DNA of 58,840 bases from Planctomycetota bacterium (GTDB lineage: Bacteria > Planctomycetota > MHYJ01 > JACPRB01): the NCBI GenBank assembly GCA_035574235.1, contig DATLZA010000075.1, positions 1 through 58,840 of the forward strand, read 5' to 3'. Below are positions 49,091 through 58,840 of the stretch, piece by piece. How positions within the stretch are numbered: the first letter of the stretch is position 1; each line of letters opens with the position of its first letter. The position numbers were made by a program, and so were the translations under genes. A model generated the notes under the pieces. It saw only the letters and a program-made list of their open reading frames with translations. It searched no databases and was not told the origin of the DNA.

Positions 49091-50335
<1,245 letters not shown>

Positions 50336-50349
50336 TCCCGGAGGTGTCC

Positions 50350-51585
50350 GTGCGCGTCGGTATCGCAGCGTTTCTTGGCTGGGCGGCCGCGGCCGGCCCG
50401 GCGCTCGCTCAGGAAATCCGCGAGGAGAAGATTCCGGTCCCCGGCACGTCCCTGACCGTGACGGTCGTCCGCGTTCCGGGGGGACGGGTGACGGTGGGGG
50501 CCAACGGGGGGAGCCGGCGGGAAGTGGAACTTCGTCCCTTCTGGATGGGGAAGTTCGAAGTCACCTGGGGGGAGTTCGACGCCTTCTTCGAGAGCGAGCA
50601 GAGCAACGTCGAGCGCCTGAAGGTCGACGGCATCACGCGGCCGACGAAGGCCAAGAGCTATTTCGGCCAGGTGGGGCTGCCGAATCACTTCCTGGAGGCG
50701 CGGCGTCCGGTGATCAACGTCCGCTGGCACGGCGCGGCGGCGTTCTGCGACTGGCTGGCGCGCCTGACGGGGCGGCGCTTCCGCCTGCCGACCGAGGCCG
50801 AATGGGAACACGCCTGCCGCGCCGGCCTGGGGGGCGATCTCGATTCCCAGGCGTGGCACGCGGGCAACAGCGGCGAGCGCAGTCACGCGGTGGGCGAGAA
50901 GAAGGCCAATGCGATCGGCCTGCATGACCTTCTCGGCAACGTGTGGGAATATTGCCTGGAGCCGATGAATCCGCCCGAGTACGGTCCCGTGCTTCGCGGC
51001 GGAGCCTGGAACACGCCCGCGTCGGAACTCGGGCCGGCGCTCCGGCACGGGGTGCCCAAGGAGTGGTACGAGGCCGATCCCAACCGGCCCCGGAGCAGCT
51101 GGTGGCTGACGAACGTGCACACGCAGGGATTCCGCGTGGTCCTCGTGGACGAGGGGGCCGAACGGTCGGCGGTTCAGGAATACGCCCGGAAGATCGACGT
51201 GAAGGTGCTGGGGTTCGAGGACGTGCCGCAGTCCAAGCGTCCGGCGCTGGGTTCTCACGCGGTCCGGGTCTGGGGCGAGGTCCGCAACACGGGGGATCGT
51301 TCGCTCGACGAGCTGGATTTGACGGTGTACTATCTTGATCCGAAAGGGCAGCCGCACCTTCTGGACGTGATCGGGGCCGACAAGGAAGGGCGGGCCACGT
51401 TCGGCCGTTGCTGGCCGGTGCTCGTTTCGAGCGCCCACGACGGCCCGCAGGCCAGGCCGCTCAAGCCGGGCGAGACGCGTGCGTTCGCGGTGGAGTTCCC
51501 GCAGAGCTCCGATCCCGAGGACTACGTGGCCTACGACAAGTTCGGCGCGCGGGTCGGCGGCCTGCGGTTCTCGCCCGCCCCGTAA
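50350..51585 (+). CDS. Exported FGE-fold protein, second of the tandem pair
   Basis: 411 residues from a GTG at 50350, chosen because GGAGG (50340-50344) lies 5 bases before it and a clean signal peptide follows (MRVGIAAFLGWAAAAGPALAQ). A GTG at 50332 overlaps the previous stop and adds six residues. It has the same two-domain plan as its neighbour: PVPGTSLTVTVVRVPGGRVT, FWMGKFEVTWGEFD, RLTGRRFRLPTEAEWEHACR, LHDLLGNVWEYCLEPM, RGGAWNTPASELGPALR, then a beta-sandwich (LDLTVYYLDPKGQP). Catalytic Cys are missing here too. The pair arose by tandem duplication and has since diverged. Confidence 0.87.
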   Translation: MRVGIAAFLGWAAAAGPALAQEIREEKIPVPGTSLTVTVVRVPGGRVTVGANGGSRREVELRPFWMGKFEVTWGEFDAFFESEQSNVERLKVDGITRPTKAKSYFGQVGLPNHFLEARRPVINVRWHGAAAFCDWLARLTGRRFRLPTEAEWEHACRAGLGGDLDSQAWHAGNSGERSHAVGEKKANAIGLHDLLGNVWEYCLEPMNPPEYGPVLRGGAWNTPASELGPALRHGVPKEWYEADPNRPRSSWWLTNVHTQGFRVVLVDEGAERSAVQEYARKIDVKVLGFEDVPQSKRPALGSHAVRVWGEVRNTGDRSLDELDLTVYYLDPKGQPHLLDVIGADKEGRATFGRCWPVLVSSAHDGPQARPLKPGETRAFAVEFPQSSDPEDYVAYDKFGARVGGLRFSPAP

Positions 51586-53020: not shown

Positions 53021-54802
53021 TCAGCTGATGAGCGGAATGTCTCCGGCGCCCGGCCGGGGTTCGCCGTCCAGCTCTTCGACCTTGAGTTCCTCGAGCTCCA
53101 CGACCTCTTCCAGGGCGGGGGCCTGTTCCTTGGGAGCGGAGGGCTTGGAAGGGGGCGGCGTCTTGGCGGGGGTCTTCTCGACCTTGGAGGGAGCGGCCCG
53201 TTCGGGGGCCGGCGTGGGGGGCGGCGTGGGGGCCAGGCGCCGGCGCGTCCCCGCGTCGGCCTTTTCGGCCTTGGAGACGGCGGAGCGCTCCAGGGCCGCG
53301 GGGGCGATCTGGATCTGGGCTTCCTGGAGGGCGCGCTGTTCCTCCATGGCGGCCACCAGGCACCCGTGGGCGATCGCCCGCAGCGGATCGCGGGCCAGGC
53401 GGATCTCGTTCACCTCGAGAGGGAAGTTGACCTTTTCGAATTCGTCCCGGAACACTTCGATGAAGCCTTTGATGAGCGAGGTGCCGCCCGCGCAGACGAC
53501 GTCGATCGGGCGGGTGAACGTAGGCATGTTCTGGGCGGTCTCGAGCTTCTGCTTGATCGTTTCCAGGGTGTACTGGATGAGGTTGCGGTAATAGATGACG
53601 ATGGCGTCCTGCACGCGGTCCTTGGGGTTGAGGAGGTCCACGCCGCTTTCCTTGACGGCGCAGACCATGGGGGCGGGCATGCCGATGGCTTGAGCGACGT
53701 TGTTGTCGATCCAGTCCCCGCCGCGGGACGTCGAGAAGGTGAGGGCCGGGACGCTCTTGTAGGCGATGCAGACGTTGAACATGCCGCCGCCGCAGGAGAT
53801 GCCGATGCCGGTGTAGTCCTGCGCCGCCAGTTCGGAGAAGACGACGGAGTGGCCCTCCAGCATCGGTTTCGGGGTGTAGCCCAGCTTGCGCAGGACCGCC
53901 TCGAGCGCCCCCCGATGGTAGATGACGTTGCGCTCGACGTCGATCGGGTCGGCCGGGACGGAGAAGGCGCAGACTTCGCCCACCTGCTTGGGGTGGCCCA
54001 GGAGCTGGGCGATGATGAGGCTGACGATGAGCAGGGCTTCGGGCTCGATGGGCGAGATCATGCCGTCCTTCATGGGCCGGCGCGTGTTTTTCTCGAAGAT
54101 GTTGGCCAGCTCGAAGGCCGGATCGCCGAGGACGTAGCCCTTGTCCCCCTGGACGATGTAGTCGATGCCCAGCTTCATCAGCATCTTCTTCGTGAAGGCG
54201 TCGGAGCGCACGTCCAGGAAGGCGTTGCGCTGGATGTTGTAGGCGACCTCGCCGGTGTCTCGGCGGCGGGCGGCGGCGCAGATGTTGACGGTGCCCACGT
54301 CGAGGCCCCGCCCCAGATCGAGGTCGAGCTTGTTGAAGCTGACGATGCGCCGCTCGCCGTCGTCGGCGACCTCGACGCGGCCCTCTCGGGAGGCGGGCTT
54401 CTCGACGGAGAAGTTCTTGATGATCTGCATGATGGGCCGCGTGGGGCCCTCCTTCTCGATCATCTCCTTGATCTCGAAGAAGAAGTCCCAGTAGCGGTTG
54501 GCCTCGGCGTCGGTGCGGGCCTTTTCGGCGGAGCGGATGATCTTGGTGAGCTCCTTGACCCAGGTGGCCGGGAGATTCTTCTCGACCGCCAGTTCCGCCA
54601 GCTGCTTCTGCCGGGCGGCGGAGTTGATCTTGGAGATCTCCAGGAGCTGGGCGTCTCCGAGGAGCCCCTTGGAACCGAGCTCGGCGACCTCGGGGTCCAG
54701 GCGCTGGAGGGCCAGGACCTTGTCCACCTGATACTTGGACAGGCCCTTGCGCTGGAGCCGGGAGTACAGCTGCTCCCCGAACGCCTTGGCCTCTTCGCCC
54801 AT
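53021..54802 (-). CDS. Actin-fold ATPase-like protein with ParB-like N-terminal region and acidic tail
   Basis: 593 residues. Three parts are seen. Residues about 1-110 are helical and resemble the HTH part of ParB/KorB (LSKYQVDKVLALQRLDPEVA, then LLGDAQLLEISKI and QLAELAVEKNL). Residues about 165-485 are an actin/FtsA/MreB-like fold: phosphate-1 loop GRGLDVGTVN, phosphate-2 region GIGISCGGGMFNVC in which the usual Asp is Ser, and an adenosine loop CAGGTSLIKGF. Residues 500-593 are Ala/Pro/Lys-rich and end in an acidic segment (LEEVVELEELKVEELDG). The central part is a close paralogue of the next gene upstream, 50 bases away. No membrane helix. Confidence 0.8.
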   Translation of the reverse strand: MGEEAKAFGEQLYSRLQRKGLSKYQVDKVLALQRLDPEVAELGSKGLLGDAQLLEISKINSAARQKQLAELAVEKNLPATWVKELTKIIRSAEKARTDAEANRYWDFFFEIKEMIEKEGPTRPIMQIIKNFSVEKPASREGRVEVADDGERRIVSFNKLDLDLGRGLDVGTVNICAAARRRDTGEVAYNIQRNAFLDVRSDAFTKKMLMKLGIDYIVQGDKGYVLGDPAFELANIFEKNTRRPMKDGMISPIEPEALLIVSLIIAQLLGHPKQVGEVCAFSVPADPIDVERNVIYHRGALEAVLRKLGYTPKPMLEGHSVVFSELAAQDYTGIGISCGGGMFNVCIAYKSVPALTFSTSRGGDWIDNNVAQAIGMPAPMVCAVKESGVDLLNPKDRVQDAIVIYYRNLIQYTLETIKQKLETAQNMPTFTRPIDVVCAGGTSLIKGFIEVFRDEFEKVNFPLEVNEIRLARDPLRAIAHGCLVAAMEEQRALQEAQIQIAPAALERSAVSKAEKADAGTRRRLAPTPPPTPAPERAAPSKVEKTPAKTPPPSKPSAPKEQAPALEEVVELEELKVEELDGEPRPGAGDIPLIS

Positions 54803-54852
54803 GGCTCTCGCTACGCGCCTCCTACCCGCGTGTCGCCGCCGTCCCGCGGCCC

Positions 54853-55860
54853 TCAGGCGGCCTGGCTGGCCATTTCCAGCTGGGCGGCCACGAGCGCGCC
54901 CTTGGCCGTGGCGTTGAACGGGTCCCTCGCCATCCGGATGTCCTTGACGGGGATCGGGAAGTCGAGCTCCTTGAAGACGGCCTTGACGAGCTCGATGAAG
55001 TTCCCCGCCATGGCCGTTCCGCCCGAGAAGACGATCGAAATCGGATCCGGGAAGCTCGGCATGTTCTCGGCGGCCCGGAACCGCTCGGCGATGTTGGTCA
55101 GGTTGTACTTGATGAGGTTCCGGTAGTAGATCGAGATCGCGTCCTCCTCGCGGTTCCTGGGCTTGAGGAGATCGACGCCCTTTTCCTTGAGAAGAGCCGC
55201 TTTGGCCGGCTTGATTCCGAGCGCGTTGGCCACGTTCAGGTCCACCCAGTCGCCCGAACGGGCCGTCGAGAAGTAAAGCGCCGGCATGGATTTATACGCC
55301 ACGCAGATGTTGAACATGCCGCCGCCGCAGGAGATGCCGATCCCGGTGAAGTCCTCCTCCGCCAGCTCCGCGAAGACGACGGCGTGACCCTCGATGATGT
55401 GGCTGGGCTTGTATCCCAGCGACTTGAGCACCGCGTCGAAAAGGTCGCGGTGGTAGGCCACCGAAAGATCCGAATCGATCGGGTCGCCCGGCACGGAGTA
55501 ATAGCAGACCTCGTTCGGAACGCGGGGCTGGCCGAGGATCGAGCCGATGAGAAGCTTCATGACCGGCAGGGCGTCCTGCTCCTTGGGGGAGATGAGGCCG
55601 TCCTTCATGGGCCGGCGCGTGTTGCGGTTGAGGACGTTCGCCAGCTCGAACGCCGGTTCGCCCAGGACGTACATCTTCTTGCCCTGAACGACATACGGCA
55701 CGTTCAGCCGCGTGAGCATGTTCTTGGTATACGCGTCGATGGGCACGTCGATGAAAACGTTGCGCTTCGGGCGCAGCTCGACCTCGCCCTTCTCGTTCTC
55801 TTCCGCGGCCACCAAGTTTACGGTCCCGACGTCCAACCCCTTGCCGTACCGGATACCCAC
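54853..55860 (-). CDS. Actin-fold ATPase-like protein (short form)
   Basis: 335 residues with a GTG start preceded by AGGAGG. It consists only of the actin-like fold: phosphate-1 GKGLDVGTVNLVAA near residues 6-19, a distinctive NTRRPMKDGLISPKE, EGHAVVFAELAEEDFTGIGI followed by SCGGGMFNICVAYKS (phosphate-2 with Ser for Asp), and adenosine loop FSGGTAMAGNFIELV. The end IRMARDPFNATAKGALVAA matches actin subdomain IA closure. It is alignable along its whole length with the core of the 53021 protein, without gaps of note. It lies between the coiled-coil gene and that paralogue, so all three are likely one operon. It is closer to MreB/FtsA/PilM than to Hsp70, but I cannot place it in a named family. 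Confidence 0.8.
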   Translation of the reverse strand: MGIRYGKGLDVGTVNLVAAEENEKGEVELRPKRNVFIDVPIDAYTKNMLTRLNVPYVVQGKKMYVLGEPAFELANVLNRNTRRPMKDGLISPKEQDALPVMKLLIGSILGQPRVPNEVCYYSVPGDPIDSDLSVAYHRDLFDAVLKSLGYKPSHIIEGHAVVFAELAEEDFTGIGISCGGGMFNICVAYKSMPALYFSTARSGDWVDLNVANALGIKPAKAALLKEKGVDLLKPRNREEDAISIYYRNLIKYNLTNIAERFRAAENMPSFPDPISIVFSGGTAMAGNFIELVKAVFKELDFPIPVKDIRMARDPFNATAKGALVAAQLEMASQAA

Positions 55861-55933
55861 CGTGTGTCCCTCCTGAATGTGACCTCGGACGTGATTTTAT
55901 CCCGGGCCGGACCCCCCAGCCACCCCCCCTGGG

Positions 55934-56845
55934 CTACTTCTTCTCCTCGTCCTTCTTCGCCTCCCCACCGCCCTGGCCGCTGCGCATGGCCTTGAGGCGC
56001 TCCAGGGCGTTGGAGATCTTTCCGCTCGTCTTGGCCTCGACCTGCATCTGCTTGAGGTTGCTTTCCAGCTCGCTGGCGACGAGGCTTTCGATCGTGGCCT
56101 GGCTGGGCCGGAATTCGAGGTCTCCCTCGAACCGGGCCGCCGCGCCCGCCCCGACCCCTCCTCCCGCCAGCGCCTTCAGGCGCAGATCCGTCAGCTTCTT
56201 GTTGACGCCGTCGATGGCCTTCGTGAAGAGCTCCGACAGCTTCATGAAGAGCTCCTCGTCGGACTTGCGCAGCTCCTCGACCATCTGGGCCTGTTTCTGG
56301 GCCGCCTCCGCCTTCATCTGTTCCAGGACCAGGCGCTCCTGGGCCATTTTGGCCTGATACTCCAGCTCCACCTGCTTGCGGACCCGCGCCTCGATCTCCT
56401 GCTCCATCGAGGCCATCTTCTTGCGCATGTCCTCGACCTCGGCGCGCATCATCGCCTTGCCGTCCTCGTAGCGCTGCTTGGCGGTGTCCTCGGCGAGCTT
56501 GCGCTGGAGCTGAATCTGCTTCTGGAGGTTTTCCACCTCCGCCGCCAGCCCCGCCTTGTCCTTCTCCATGAGCTCGGCCTTGTCCTTCATGGCCTGATGT
56601 TCCTTCATCAGGCGGTCGAGCTCCTGGCGCGAGGCGGCAATGAGCTTCTGGCGGTCGTCGGCGGAAAGCAGGTTGGTCTTCGTGGAGACGATCCGCTCCA
56701 CCGCGTCCCCGATGAGCTTGTTGATCATCTGCTCGTCGAGGACCTTCACCCGATGGATCCCGCGCTTGGCGAGTTCCTGGAGGGTGCTCTTCGAGGAGCT
56801 CTGCTCGATCGCGCGCCGGACGTCGAACGGCTGTGGATCGGTCAT
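55934..56845 (-). CDS. Long coiled-coil protein, first gene of the actin-like operon
   Basis: 303 residues from ATG 56845; a GTG ten codons upstream overlaps the -10 box and is unlikely. The N-terminal 70 residues form a small helical domain (STLQELAKRGIHRVKVLDEQ). Residues about 75-200 are a continuous coiled coil with heptads of Leu/Ala/Met (DKAGLAAEVENLQKQIQLQR). Residues 200-303 are again helical, with a Gly/Ala-rich break and a Lys/Glu-rich tail. No signal or membrane helix is seen. Such a protein could cross-link or cap filaments made by the two downstream actin-like proteins. A strong promoter and GGAG site precede it. Confidence 0.75.
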   Translation of the reverse strand: MTDPQPFDVRRAIEQSSSKSTLQELAKRGIHRVKVLDEQMINKLIGDAVERIVSTKTNLLSADDRQKLIAASRQELDRLMKEHQAMKDKAELMEKDKAGLAAEVENLQKQIQLQRKLAEDTAKQRYEDGKAMMRAEVEDMRKKMASMEQEIEARVRKQVELEYQAKMAQERLVLEQMKAEAAQKQAQMVEELRKSDEELFMKLSELFTKAIDGVNKKLTDLRLKALAGGGVGAGAAARFEGDLEFRPSQATIESLVASELESNLKQMQVEAKTSGKISNALERLKAMRSGQGGGEAKKDEEKK

Positions 56846-56863
56846 CCGAGTCTCCGACGGCAA

Positions 56864-56893
56864 ATTATATCCCACCCTTCAAAGCCCTGTCAA
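56864..56893 (-). promoter_or_regulatory. Strong promoter of coiled-coil/actin-like operon (TTGACA-18-TATAAT)
   Basis: Both hexamers are perfect: TTGACA (minus strand, 56893-56888) and TATAAT (56869-56864) with 18 bases between. The leader of about 12 bases has GGAG 7 bases before ATG 56845. This is the best promoter in the window, so the operon is probably highly expressed. Confidence 0.8.
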
Positions 56894-56915: not shown

Positions 56916-58196
56916 TCAGACCCGGAAGCGCTCGAGCTTGTAGACGGCCCGGGCCGGCACCTTCACCCGCATCCGGACGTGCCCGTCCACGAACGTGCGG
57001 TCCACCAGCACCGACCAGGTCGCCAGCTCCGCCAGGAGCCGCCCCTCCGTCAGCGGGATCGAAACCTCCATCTCCCGGAGCTGGCGCGTCAGCGCCTCCG
57101 CCACCCGCCGCGCCAGGAGATCCAGGCCCTCTCCCGTCCGCGCCGACAGCGCCAGCGATCCCGGGAACCGGTTCAGCAGGATCTCCCGCTCCACCGCGTC
57201 CCGGAAACGGTCGATCTTGTTGAACAGAAGAAGCGTCGGCTTGCCGCGGCAGCCCAGCTCCTCGAGCACGGATTCCACCGACCGGATCTGTTCCTCCGCC
57301 TGGGGGTGGCTGGCGTCCACGACGTGCAGAAGGAGGTCCGCCTGCGTCACCTCCTCGAGCGTCGCGTGGAAGCTCGCCACGAGGTCGTGCGGCAGGTTCC
57401 GGATGAACCCCACCGTGTCCGAGAGCAGCACCCGGATCCCCGGGCCGATCGTCCAGAGCCGCGTGCGCGTGTCCAGCGTCGAGAAGAGCCGGTCCTCCAC
57501 GAGCACCCCCGCCCCCGTCAGCGCGTTCATCAGCGTGGATTTTCCGGCGTTCGTGTAGCCGACCAGAGACACCGTGGTGTTCTCGAGCGTCCGGGCGGAA
57601 ACCTCGCGGCGCTTGCGCTCCTCAAGCTGCTTCATCTCGCGCCGCAGCGTCGTGATCCTCCGGCGCGCCAGGCGGCGGTCCACTTCGAGCTGCTTTTCGC
57701 CCGGGCCGCGCTGGCCGATCCCGATTCCGAAACCGCCCGCCTGCTGCTCGCCCCGCAGGTGCGCCCCCAGCCGCGACAGCCGCGGGAGGTTGTACTCCAG
57801 TTGCGCCAGCTCCACCTGGAGCTTCGCCTGGTGGGTCCGGGCGTGCGTGGCGAAAATGTCCAGGATCAGCTCGGTCCGGTCGATGACCTTGCAGCCGACG
57901 TCCTTTTCGAGATTCTGGACCTGGGCGGGAGAAAGCTCGTTGTCGAAAATCGCGCAGTCGGCGCGGTGCTGCGCCGCCAGACGGGAAAGCTCCCCCACCT
58001 TGCCGGATCCGATGTAGGTGCGGGGGTCGGGCCGCTCCCGCTTCTGGAGCACCCGGTCCACGACGATCGCGCCGGCCGTCTCGGCCAGGCGCGTCAGCTC
58101 CTCGAGGGGGTCCGCCGCCCGAACGTCGGTCCCGGGATCGACCGTGCCCACGAGCAGGGCCCGCTCCCGGTAAACCGTCTTCTCGAAGGGTTTCAA
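56916..58196 (-). CDS. hflX: GTPase HflX
   Basis: About 426 residues from a TTG at 58196 (436 if ATG 58226 is used). HflX is a ribosome-associated GTPase that splits stalled or heat-damaged ribosomes. Seen: the HflX N-terminal domain (YIGSGKVGEL, AIFDNELSPAQVQNLEK, DRTELILDIFATHARTHQA), glycine-rich QRGPGEKQLEVDRR, then the GTPase: GYTNAGKSTLMNAL (G1), LFSTLDTRTR (G2), LLSDTVGFIRNLPH (G3) and LLFNKIDR (G4). The C-terminal domain ends VKVPARAVYKLERF. ATG 58226 lies inside a TATAAT box with a good -35, so it cannot start that transcript's protein. The stop lies 23 bases from the -35 of the coiled-coil operon. Confidence 0.92.
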   Translation of the reverse strand: MKPFEKTVYRERALLVGTVDPGTDVRAADPLEELTRLAETAGAIVVDRVLQKRERPDPRTYIGSGKVGELSRLAAQHRADCAIFDNELSPAQVQNLEKDVGCKVIDRTELILDIFATHARTHQAKLQVELAQLEYNLPRLSRLGAHLRGEQQAGGFGIGIGQRGPGEKQLEVDRRLARRRITTLRREMKQLEERKRREVSARTLENTTVSLVGYTNAGKSTLMNALTGAGVLVEDRLFSTLDTRTRLWTIGPGIRVLLSDTVGFIRNLPHDLVASFHATLEEVTQADLLLHVVDASHPQAEEQIRSVESVLEELGCRGKPTLLLFNKIDRFRDAVEREILLNRFPGSLALSARTGEGLDLLARRVAEALTRQLREMEVSIPLTEGRLLAELATWSVLVDRTFVDGHVRMRVKVPARAVYKLERFRV

Positions 58197-58224
58197 CAGG
58201 CTGTTCCGATTCCTCCCGAATCGC

Positions 58225-58253
58225 ATTATAGGCGCGCCCGGTTCCCGAATCAA
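58225..58253 (-). promoter_or_regulatory. hflX promoter (TTGATT-17-TATAAT)
   Basis: TTGATT (minus strand, 58253-58248) and TATAAT (58230-58225) are 17 bases apart. The ATG at 58226-58224 overlaps the -10 box. The predicted leader contains GGGAGG (58217-58212) upstream of CTG 58199 and TTG 58196. Confidence 0.65.
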
Positions 58254-58271
58254 CCGCCCCGCGCGCGGCCA

Positions 58272-58299
58272 TTGCATTGCTTCCACCCGCTGGTATACT
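58272..58299 (+). promoter_or_regulatory. holA promoter (TTGCAT-16-TATACT)
   Basis: TTGCAT (58272-58277) and TATACT (58294-58299) are 16 bases apart, 11 bases before the GTG at 58311. It is divergent from the hflX promoter with about 18 bases between the two -35 boxes. Confidence 0.5.
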
Positions 58300-58310
58300 G
58301 AATTTCTTCC

Positions 58311-58840
58311 GTGAATCCGTCGCCCGTCGATTTCGCCTCGTTCGCCGCCGAGATCCGGGGGAAGAAACCCCCGGCGCCGGTGTACGTCTTCGCCGGACCC
58401 GAAGCCCTCCTGCGCGACCGCGGCGTGGCCCTCCTGCGCGAACGGGATCCGGAACTGGCCGCCCACGCCGTCCGCCTGACCTCCTCCGAGATCGACTGGA
58501 CCCGCCTGGCCGACGAGCTCTATACGCCCCCGTTCCTCGGAAGCCGCAAGCTCGTCGTCCTCGCCGATGAAGGCAACTTCGTCCATAATCATGCCGACGC
58601 GCTGCGGGCTTACCTGGCCGCCCCGTCGCCCGCCGCCGTCCTGGCCGCCCTCGTCCCCGGCGGAAAGGTCCCGGCCCTCGGGGAAGGGGCCGTCGTCGTC
58701 GAGTGCCGCCCCCCGCGCCCCGCGGAACTTCCCCGGTGGATTTCCACCGAAGCCCAGCGGCTGGGCAAGACCCTCGACCGCGCGGCGGCCCAGCTCCTGG
58801 CTTCGCGGGCCGGCGGGAACCTCGCGGCCCTGGCGGGTCA
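58311..58840 (+). CDS. holA: DNA polymerase III delta subunit, N-terminal part (cut by window edge)
   Basis: The visible 176 residues from GTG 58311 match the N-terminal AAA+ domain of HolA, the clamp-loader subunit that opens the sliding clamp: PVYVFAGPEALLRDRGVALL, LADELYTPPFLGSRKLVVLA, then RAYLAAPSPAAVLAALVPGG and LPRWISTEAQRLGKTLDRAA. The YVFAGPE opening (F-x-G-x-E) with the FLGSRKLVVL strand is typical. The rest lies outside the window. A GTG start is the first in-frame start after the promoter. Identification rests on pattern, with no sequence search. Confidence 0.82.
   Translation, partial: MNPSPVDFASFAAEIRGKKPPAPVYVFAGPEALLRDRGVALLRERDPELAAHAVRLTSSEIDWTRLADELYTPPFLGSRKLVVLADEGNFVHNHADALRAYLAAPSPAAVLAALVPGGKVPALGEGAVVVECRPPRPAELPRWISTEAQRLGKTLDRAAAQLLASRAGGNLAALAG

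Follow-up and report, generated by a model that had tools for sequence, protein, structure and literature searches.

A planctomycete operon pairs two volactin-family actins, one of them carrying a ParB/Noc-type domain, with a conserved putative coiled-coil partner

The locus lies in a 58,840-nucleotide stretch of a Planctomycetota contig (DATLZA010000075.1, assembly GCA_035574235.1; hereafter the window) and consists of three genes in the order CC-A1-A2, arranged as an operon on the minus strand. CC (55934..56845, minus strand) encodes a 303-residue putative coiled-coil protein, A1 (54853..55860, minus strand, GTG start) a 335-residue volactin-type actin, and A2 (53021..54802, minus strand) a 593-residue protein made up of a ParB/Noc-type helix-turn-helix (HTH) domain, a volactin core, and an acidic proline-rich tail. 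Re-reading the open reading frames gave the same single strand, protein lengths, and intergenic gaps of 73 and 50 bases as a first-pass annotation of the sequence. The operon is preceded by a sigma-70-type promoter, TTGACA-N18-TATAAT (56864..56893, minus strand), located between hflX and CC; the annotation had called it perfect, and it does match the consensus at 12 of 12 positions and is the sole such site across 4.2 kb, where shuffled sequence yields a mean of 0.3. For CC, we preferred the ATG start at 56845, which has a GGAG upstream, over the upstream GTG start of the program-made ORF list (313 residues) because the latter overlaps the -10 region. The GC3 of the three ORFs is 0.91 to 0.93, and the order CC-A1-A2 is kept at the orthologous loci of four other, related genera (L005-L008); we therefore regard the ORFs as real genes in a stable order. 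The close relatives used for comparison are metagenome assemblies. The upstream neighbor, hflX (56916..58592, minus strand; TIGR03156, E = 9e-131), is probably not a component of the system; a gene that looks equivalent to it was also seen at L005 and L006. Elsewhere in the window, at 49091-51585, lie two adjacent genes of similar layout, each with a secretion-signal-like start and a formylglycine-generating-enzyme-type domain (supported by Pfam for the second gene only), followed by a gene for a PQQ-repeat protein.

A1 and the core of A2 are bacterial volactins with an actin fold. The Pfam profile PF25216 (Volactin) matched A1 with E = 9.3e-81 and A2 with E of about 2e-86 to 7e-87 (core at 53348..54310, minus strand, E = 7e-87); the scores of the two proteins, 290.8 and 272.2 bits, exceed the curated cut-off of 35 bits by more than 230 bits in both cores. 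Their paralogy had been read from shared runs such as NTRRPMKDG, TGIGISCGGGMFN, and IYYRNLI, and the alignment contains these runs and is identical at 181 of 324 positions (56%). An AlphaFold2 model of A1 based on a 17-sequence alignment reached a pLDDT of 92 and a pTM of 0.90, and a Foldseek search of the PDB placed MamK, MreB, BeeR, and FtsA nearest, with E down to 5e-15 and MamK as the closest solved fold, bearing out the actin fold proposed at first pass; a PDB sequence search with A1 returned no significant match. Haloarchaeal plasmid volactins align with 96% of A1 at 38 to 39% identity, and the Haloferax volactin belongs to the same family as A1 and the A2 core. A trait of the family in our alignments, common to the haloarchaeal and nearly all bacterial members, is the sequence I-S-x-G-x-G, in which serine replaces the usual phosphate-2 aspartate. 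The system had been presented as undescribed, which is true of it in part, since the volactin family, to which both cores belong, was described in 2024 from Haloferax. In the tree, the A1 and A2 clades of family f1 are distinct and each is well supported, whereas the deeper order is not settled.

A relocated and renamed MreB, FtsA, or PilM system would account for the weak, subthreshold matches to the FtsA profile (13.8 and 17.1 bits against a cut-off of 31.8) and the MreB profile (PF06723, 18 bits for A2 against a cut-off of 27, with no match for A1), but PF25216 outscores these profiles by about 250 bits, the PilM profile gave no match, a genuine MreB (475 bits) is encoded on another contig of the genome, and no mreCD, fts, or pil neighbors were noticed in the orthologous loci. 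Given these profile and neighborhood results, this reading, which the first-pass annotation had dismissed from the neighboring genes, is already refuted and retains almost no probability. The annotation was accordingly right to set FtsA, MreB, and PilM aside, although the actins are volactins and not of an unknown kind. Two further candidates were rejected: MamK identity (NF040964, 18.6 bits against a cut-off of 400 bits) and anti-phage defense (no PADLOC match).

The 165 residues that precede the actin core of A2 had been left uninterpreted and are a ParB/Noc-type DNA-binding domain, with the HTH domain at about residues 1-93 (54524..54802, minus strand). PF17762 (HTH_ParB) was the best family for the N-domains of all five A2 orthologues, in one common register; with 26.4 bits and E = 8.1e-6, one orthologue passed the curated cut-off, and the remainder fell below it with E values of 0.0075 to 0.032. 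With hhalign, the comparison with 28 ParB HTH rows scored 30.9, compared to a maximum of 13.2 among 40 column-shuffled decoys, at a moderate hhalign probability of 65%. A blind reverse search of 392 Planctomycetota genomes ranked the five orthologues first, with nine weaker matches below them, and the six of these nine that were examined are all canonical ParBs with the GERRxRA motif. The AlphaFold2 model of the domain is all-helical and confident for residues 30-130; in Foldseek, its top matches were ParB and Noc DNA-binding domains (probability 1.00, E 0.02-0.2), among them Noc bound to its DNA site, while Raf1 ranked lower with a large rmsd. We take this structural match between a model and known folds as supportive rather than decisive alone. 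A PDB sequence search with the N-domain profile gave no significant match. The profile, hhalign, Foldseek, and reverse-search results agree with one another; we consider homology to the ParB/Noc DNA-binding domain established, and the domain probably binds DNA. The likeliest role of the operon therefore shifts towards DNA or nucleoid attachment. Unlike ParB and Noc, A2 has neither the CTPase domain (no family match, and the protein starts at the HTH region) nor the known C-terminal ParB dimerization domain, and its HTH is fused to an actin. All five genomes of family f1 have this HTH-volactin fusion, which was absent from the 387 other Planctomycetota genomes searched. At the opposite end of A2, the variable proline/glutamate-rich tail finishes in a conserved hexapeptide, D[ILF]PL[IF]S (53024..53041, minus strand), in the alignment of the five orthologues.

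The HTH could alternatively be used for protein contacts or for autoregulation. In the latter case, A2 would repress its own promoter and sense the state of the filament with no structural role on DNA. ParR-type adaptors often autoregulate, and a lone strong promoter immediately precedes CC; however, no palindrome or iteron was detected at this promoter, and ParB/Noc-type HTHs usually serve nucleoid organization, which makes autoregulation a distinctly improbable sole function.

CC is low in proline and glycine, about 50% of its residues are charged or glutamine, and the periodicity test gave a weak signal at 3.5-3.7, which hints faintly at a coiled coil. The protein had no Pfam match above cut-off, HTH families included, and no PADLOC or PHROG match. 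Its conserved part is an N-terminal head of about 66 residues (56627..56824, minus strand), which the head profile matched here with E = 3.5e-23. Orthologues of CC adjoin volactin in many Planctomycetota families, and the head occurs in 47 ORFs of volactin loci, each of which immediately precedes volactin, overlaps it, or is fused to it. When 294 Planctomycetota genomes were searched for the head without reference to volactin, 82 strong matches were obtained; 66 of them are followed on their own strand by a volactin, in 65 cases within 2.3 kb. Of the 71 genomes in which the head matched strongly, 70 encode a volactin (Fisher p of about 4e-37, with genomes counted as independent despite their relatedness). 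As 67 of 137 volactin genes have no strong head match upstream, the partner is common rather than universal. In one locus (L051, genome G272), CC and volactin are naturally fused into a single 750-residue protein. These head-profile searches agree with the earlier view of the coiled-coil gene as a partner: CC is a conserved, gene-linked partner of volactin, with which it would be expected to make contact. Several other planctomycete volactins have long N-termini, but these proved to be mostly reading-frame artifacts overlapping the upstream CC gene. In genome G000, a CC-head ORF (C98:2-763, L173) and an A1-like volactin (C108:1-1233, L052) are each cut at a contig end and look like pieces of a third volactin, fused to CC as in L051.

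In family f18, which has no volactin over the cut-off, a CC-head protein precedes a MamK-family actin instead. Since the head is found before either type of actin, it looks like an actin-partner domain. The f18 heads occur in ORFs of 650-760 residues (L184:4723-7936 and L185:4876-8306), outside any evident magnetosome context. The f18 arrangement, and the position of MamK as the closest solved fold to A1, would suit a system that positions an organelle or a protein complex, and two actins with coiled-coil proteins are a known magnetosome design, MamK and Mad28 with Mad20, Mad23, Mad25, and Mad26 (PMC12748827). In contrast to the operon described here, MamK and Mad28 belong to a different actin family and carry no DNA-binding domain. 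No magnetosome or other organelle genes were seen near the operon, the MamK model matched weakly, and the ParB-type HTH would be left unexplained, so that we judge organelle positioning improbable.

Of 294 Planctomycetota genomes, 111 have a volactin over the PF25216 threshold, as do 7 of 193 Omnitrophota genomes. In at least five of the latter (L012, L134, L135, L136, and L137), the genes form a cluster encoding a ParA/MinD-like ATPase, a coiled-coil protein, a volactin, a second volactin, and a 200-residue protein, and this cluster provides another, independent connection between paired volactins and partition-type ATPases. The N-terminal extensions of the second Omnitrophota volactins were considered as ParB-type domains and rejected as unrelated. 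The tree cannot tell whether the duplication in Omnitrophota was independent of that which gave A1 and A2.

FtsZ was not found in any of the 23 genomes searched of the class to which the window genome belongs, while a control search was positive in 13 of 14 reference genomes; division in this class must therefore use other parts. The volactin of Haloferax volcanii (VolA, HVO_2015) is described as forming dynamic filaments in vivo that touch the membrane by their tips and as acting in cell shape, where it determines the disk form (PMC10869688). A1 and A2 filaments might likewise shape the cell or envelope, with CC as an intermediate-filament-like element and the HTH serving only to hold filaments at the nucleoid or away from it, in the manner of Noc. 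This possibility draws on the role of the Haloferax protein, on the DNA-bound Noc among the structural matches of the A2 N-domain, and on the need for other division parts in a class without FtsZ, but it sits less well with the ordinary MreB of the genome, the lack of conserved envelope genes in the operon, and the ParA that accompanies the Omnitrophota pairs. We regard it as unlikely, though worth keeping in mind.

We propose instead that the operon encodes a DNA-tethered volactin cytoskeleton in which A1 polymerizes, A2 joins the filament to DNA, and CC organizes or anchors it, a reading to which we assign even odds (a probability of about 0.5). A1 would be the bulk filament subunit; the volactin core of A2 would join or cap A1 filaments, while its HTH would hold on to a particular site on the DNA, or to the nucleoid. 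A2 would thereby merge in one chain the roles of ParM, the actin, and ParR, the DNA adaptor. The CC head would bind volactin, and the protein would bundle, space, or anchor filaments. Its likely task would be the positioning or segregation of chromosomal DNA, or a link between the location of the nucleoid and cell shape and division, in cells that lack FtsZ. Polymerization, copolymerization of A1 with A2, and the cellular role are what we infer for this locus; the first-pass annotation had suggested that the two actins copolymerize or form antagonistic filaments, and either may be the case. The reading draws on the volactin family and fold, the ParB-type HTH and its presence in every f1 genome, the linkage of CC to volactin, the ParA of the Omnitrophota clusters, and the class in which no FtsZ was found. 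Against it stand the absence of a convincing parS- or parC-like repeat cluster from the operon, the other possible uses of the HTH, the missing CTPase and dimerization domains of A2, and the cell-shape role and membrane-touching filament tips of the one characterized volactin. That the operon represents a new class of DNA-positioning or segregation machine of FtsZ-less Planctomycetota, consisting of a mixed volactin filament in which one actin subunit bears a ParB/Noc-type centromere-binding domain and organized by a phylum-wide family of coiled-coil partners, is a more tentative suggestion, to which we give slightly less than an even chance.

Type II partition systems (ParMRC and AlpAC) resemble the operon in combining an actin-fold ATPase and an HTH DNA-binding function. 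Here, however, the HTH is of the ParB/Noc type and is fused to a second actin, and the actins are volactins and not ParM or AlpC. At the operon, we saw no convincing cluster of parS- or parC-like repeats; those repeats that occur there are short, imperfect, and nearly all within coding sequence. Because there is no separate ParR or AlpA gene and no iterated centromere was found at the operon, we do not class it with ParMRC. A ParB-family protein physically tied to a cytoskeletal filament is known from the bactofilin-PadC-ParABS system of Myxococcus, which serves chromosome segregation (PMC5703909; PadC is also cited in PMC12704722). PadC differs in keeping its CTPase domain and in using bactofilin as the filament, whereas in A2 the HTH and the actin share one chain. 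The operon also differs from the haloarchaeal volactin, being bacterial, with two paralogues, one of which bears a ParB-type HTH, and with a coiled-coil partner gene. To our knowledge, no other actin subunit carries a ParB-type DNA-binding domain within its own chain.

Among 5.39 million open-access papers, volactin is mentioned in seven, none of which appears to concern bacteria, and Planctomycetes are absent from the main volactin paper (PMC10869688). New here are the ParB-type HTH on A2, the conserved CC partner, the spread of volactin in Planctomycetota, Omnitrophota, and phages, and its presence in a class without detected FtsZ. Volactin, known from haloarchaea, is thus common in Planctomycetota; CC is the first concrete candidate for a volactin-binding factor, of a kind suspected in Haloferax; and the operon is a directly testable suspect for chromosome arrangement and division in FtsZ-less planctomycetes.

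Several observations concern the family more widely. In the two haloarchaeal plasmid loci that we read (L107:4974-5897 and L108:4920-5828), the position that CC occupies here, upstream of volactin, is taken by related membrane-protein genes; the encoded protein has a conserved cytoplasmic-looking tail and is a candidate membrane anchor. The haloarchaeal volactins nest in a clade with those of Planctomycetota families f6, f15, f24, f80, and f90, a placement based on these two archaeal sequences and an arbitrary root; the family may thus have crossed from one domain to another. In Planctomycetota, a 1160-residue ORF (L050:7238-10720, G188:C115) combines an A2-type volactin lacking the HTH with a Wzz/BY-kinase polysaccharide co-polymerase. 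Volactin-family actins are also very common on viral contigs, with at least 521 confirmed (including L221-L300, LR745208, and LR756511), some on contigs of up to 435 kb. A phage-borne module was considered and rejected, as the volactins of phages fall into separate clades and show no pairing, CC head, or HTH. No PHROG match was obtained for a phage volactin or its tested neighbors. Among the matches listed, the best viral volactins are 38 to 50% identical to A1, and the three tested all passed the Pfam cut-off. In the loci read, the viral volactins are single-copy, often lie directly downstream of a gene of about 210 codons, and are found near genes that by eye resemble tail genes.
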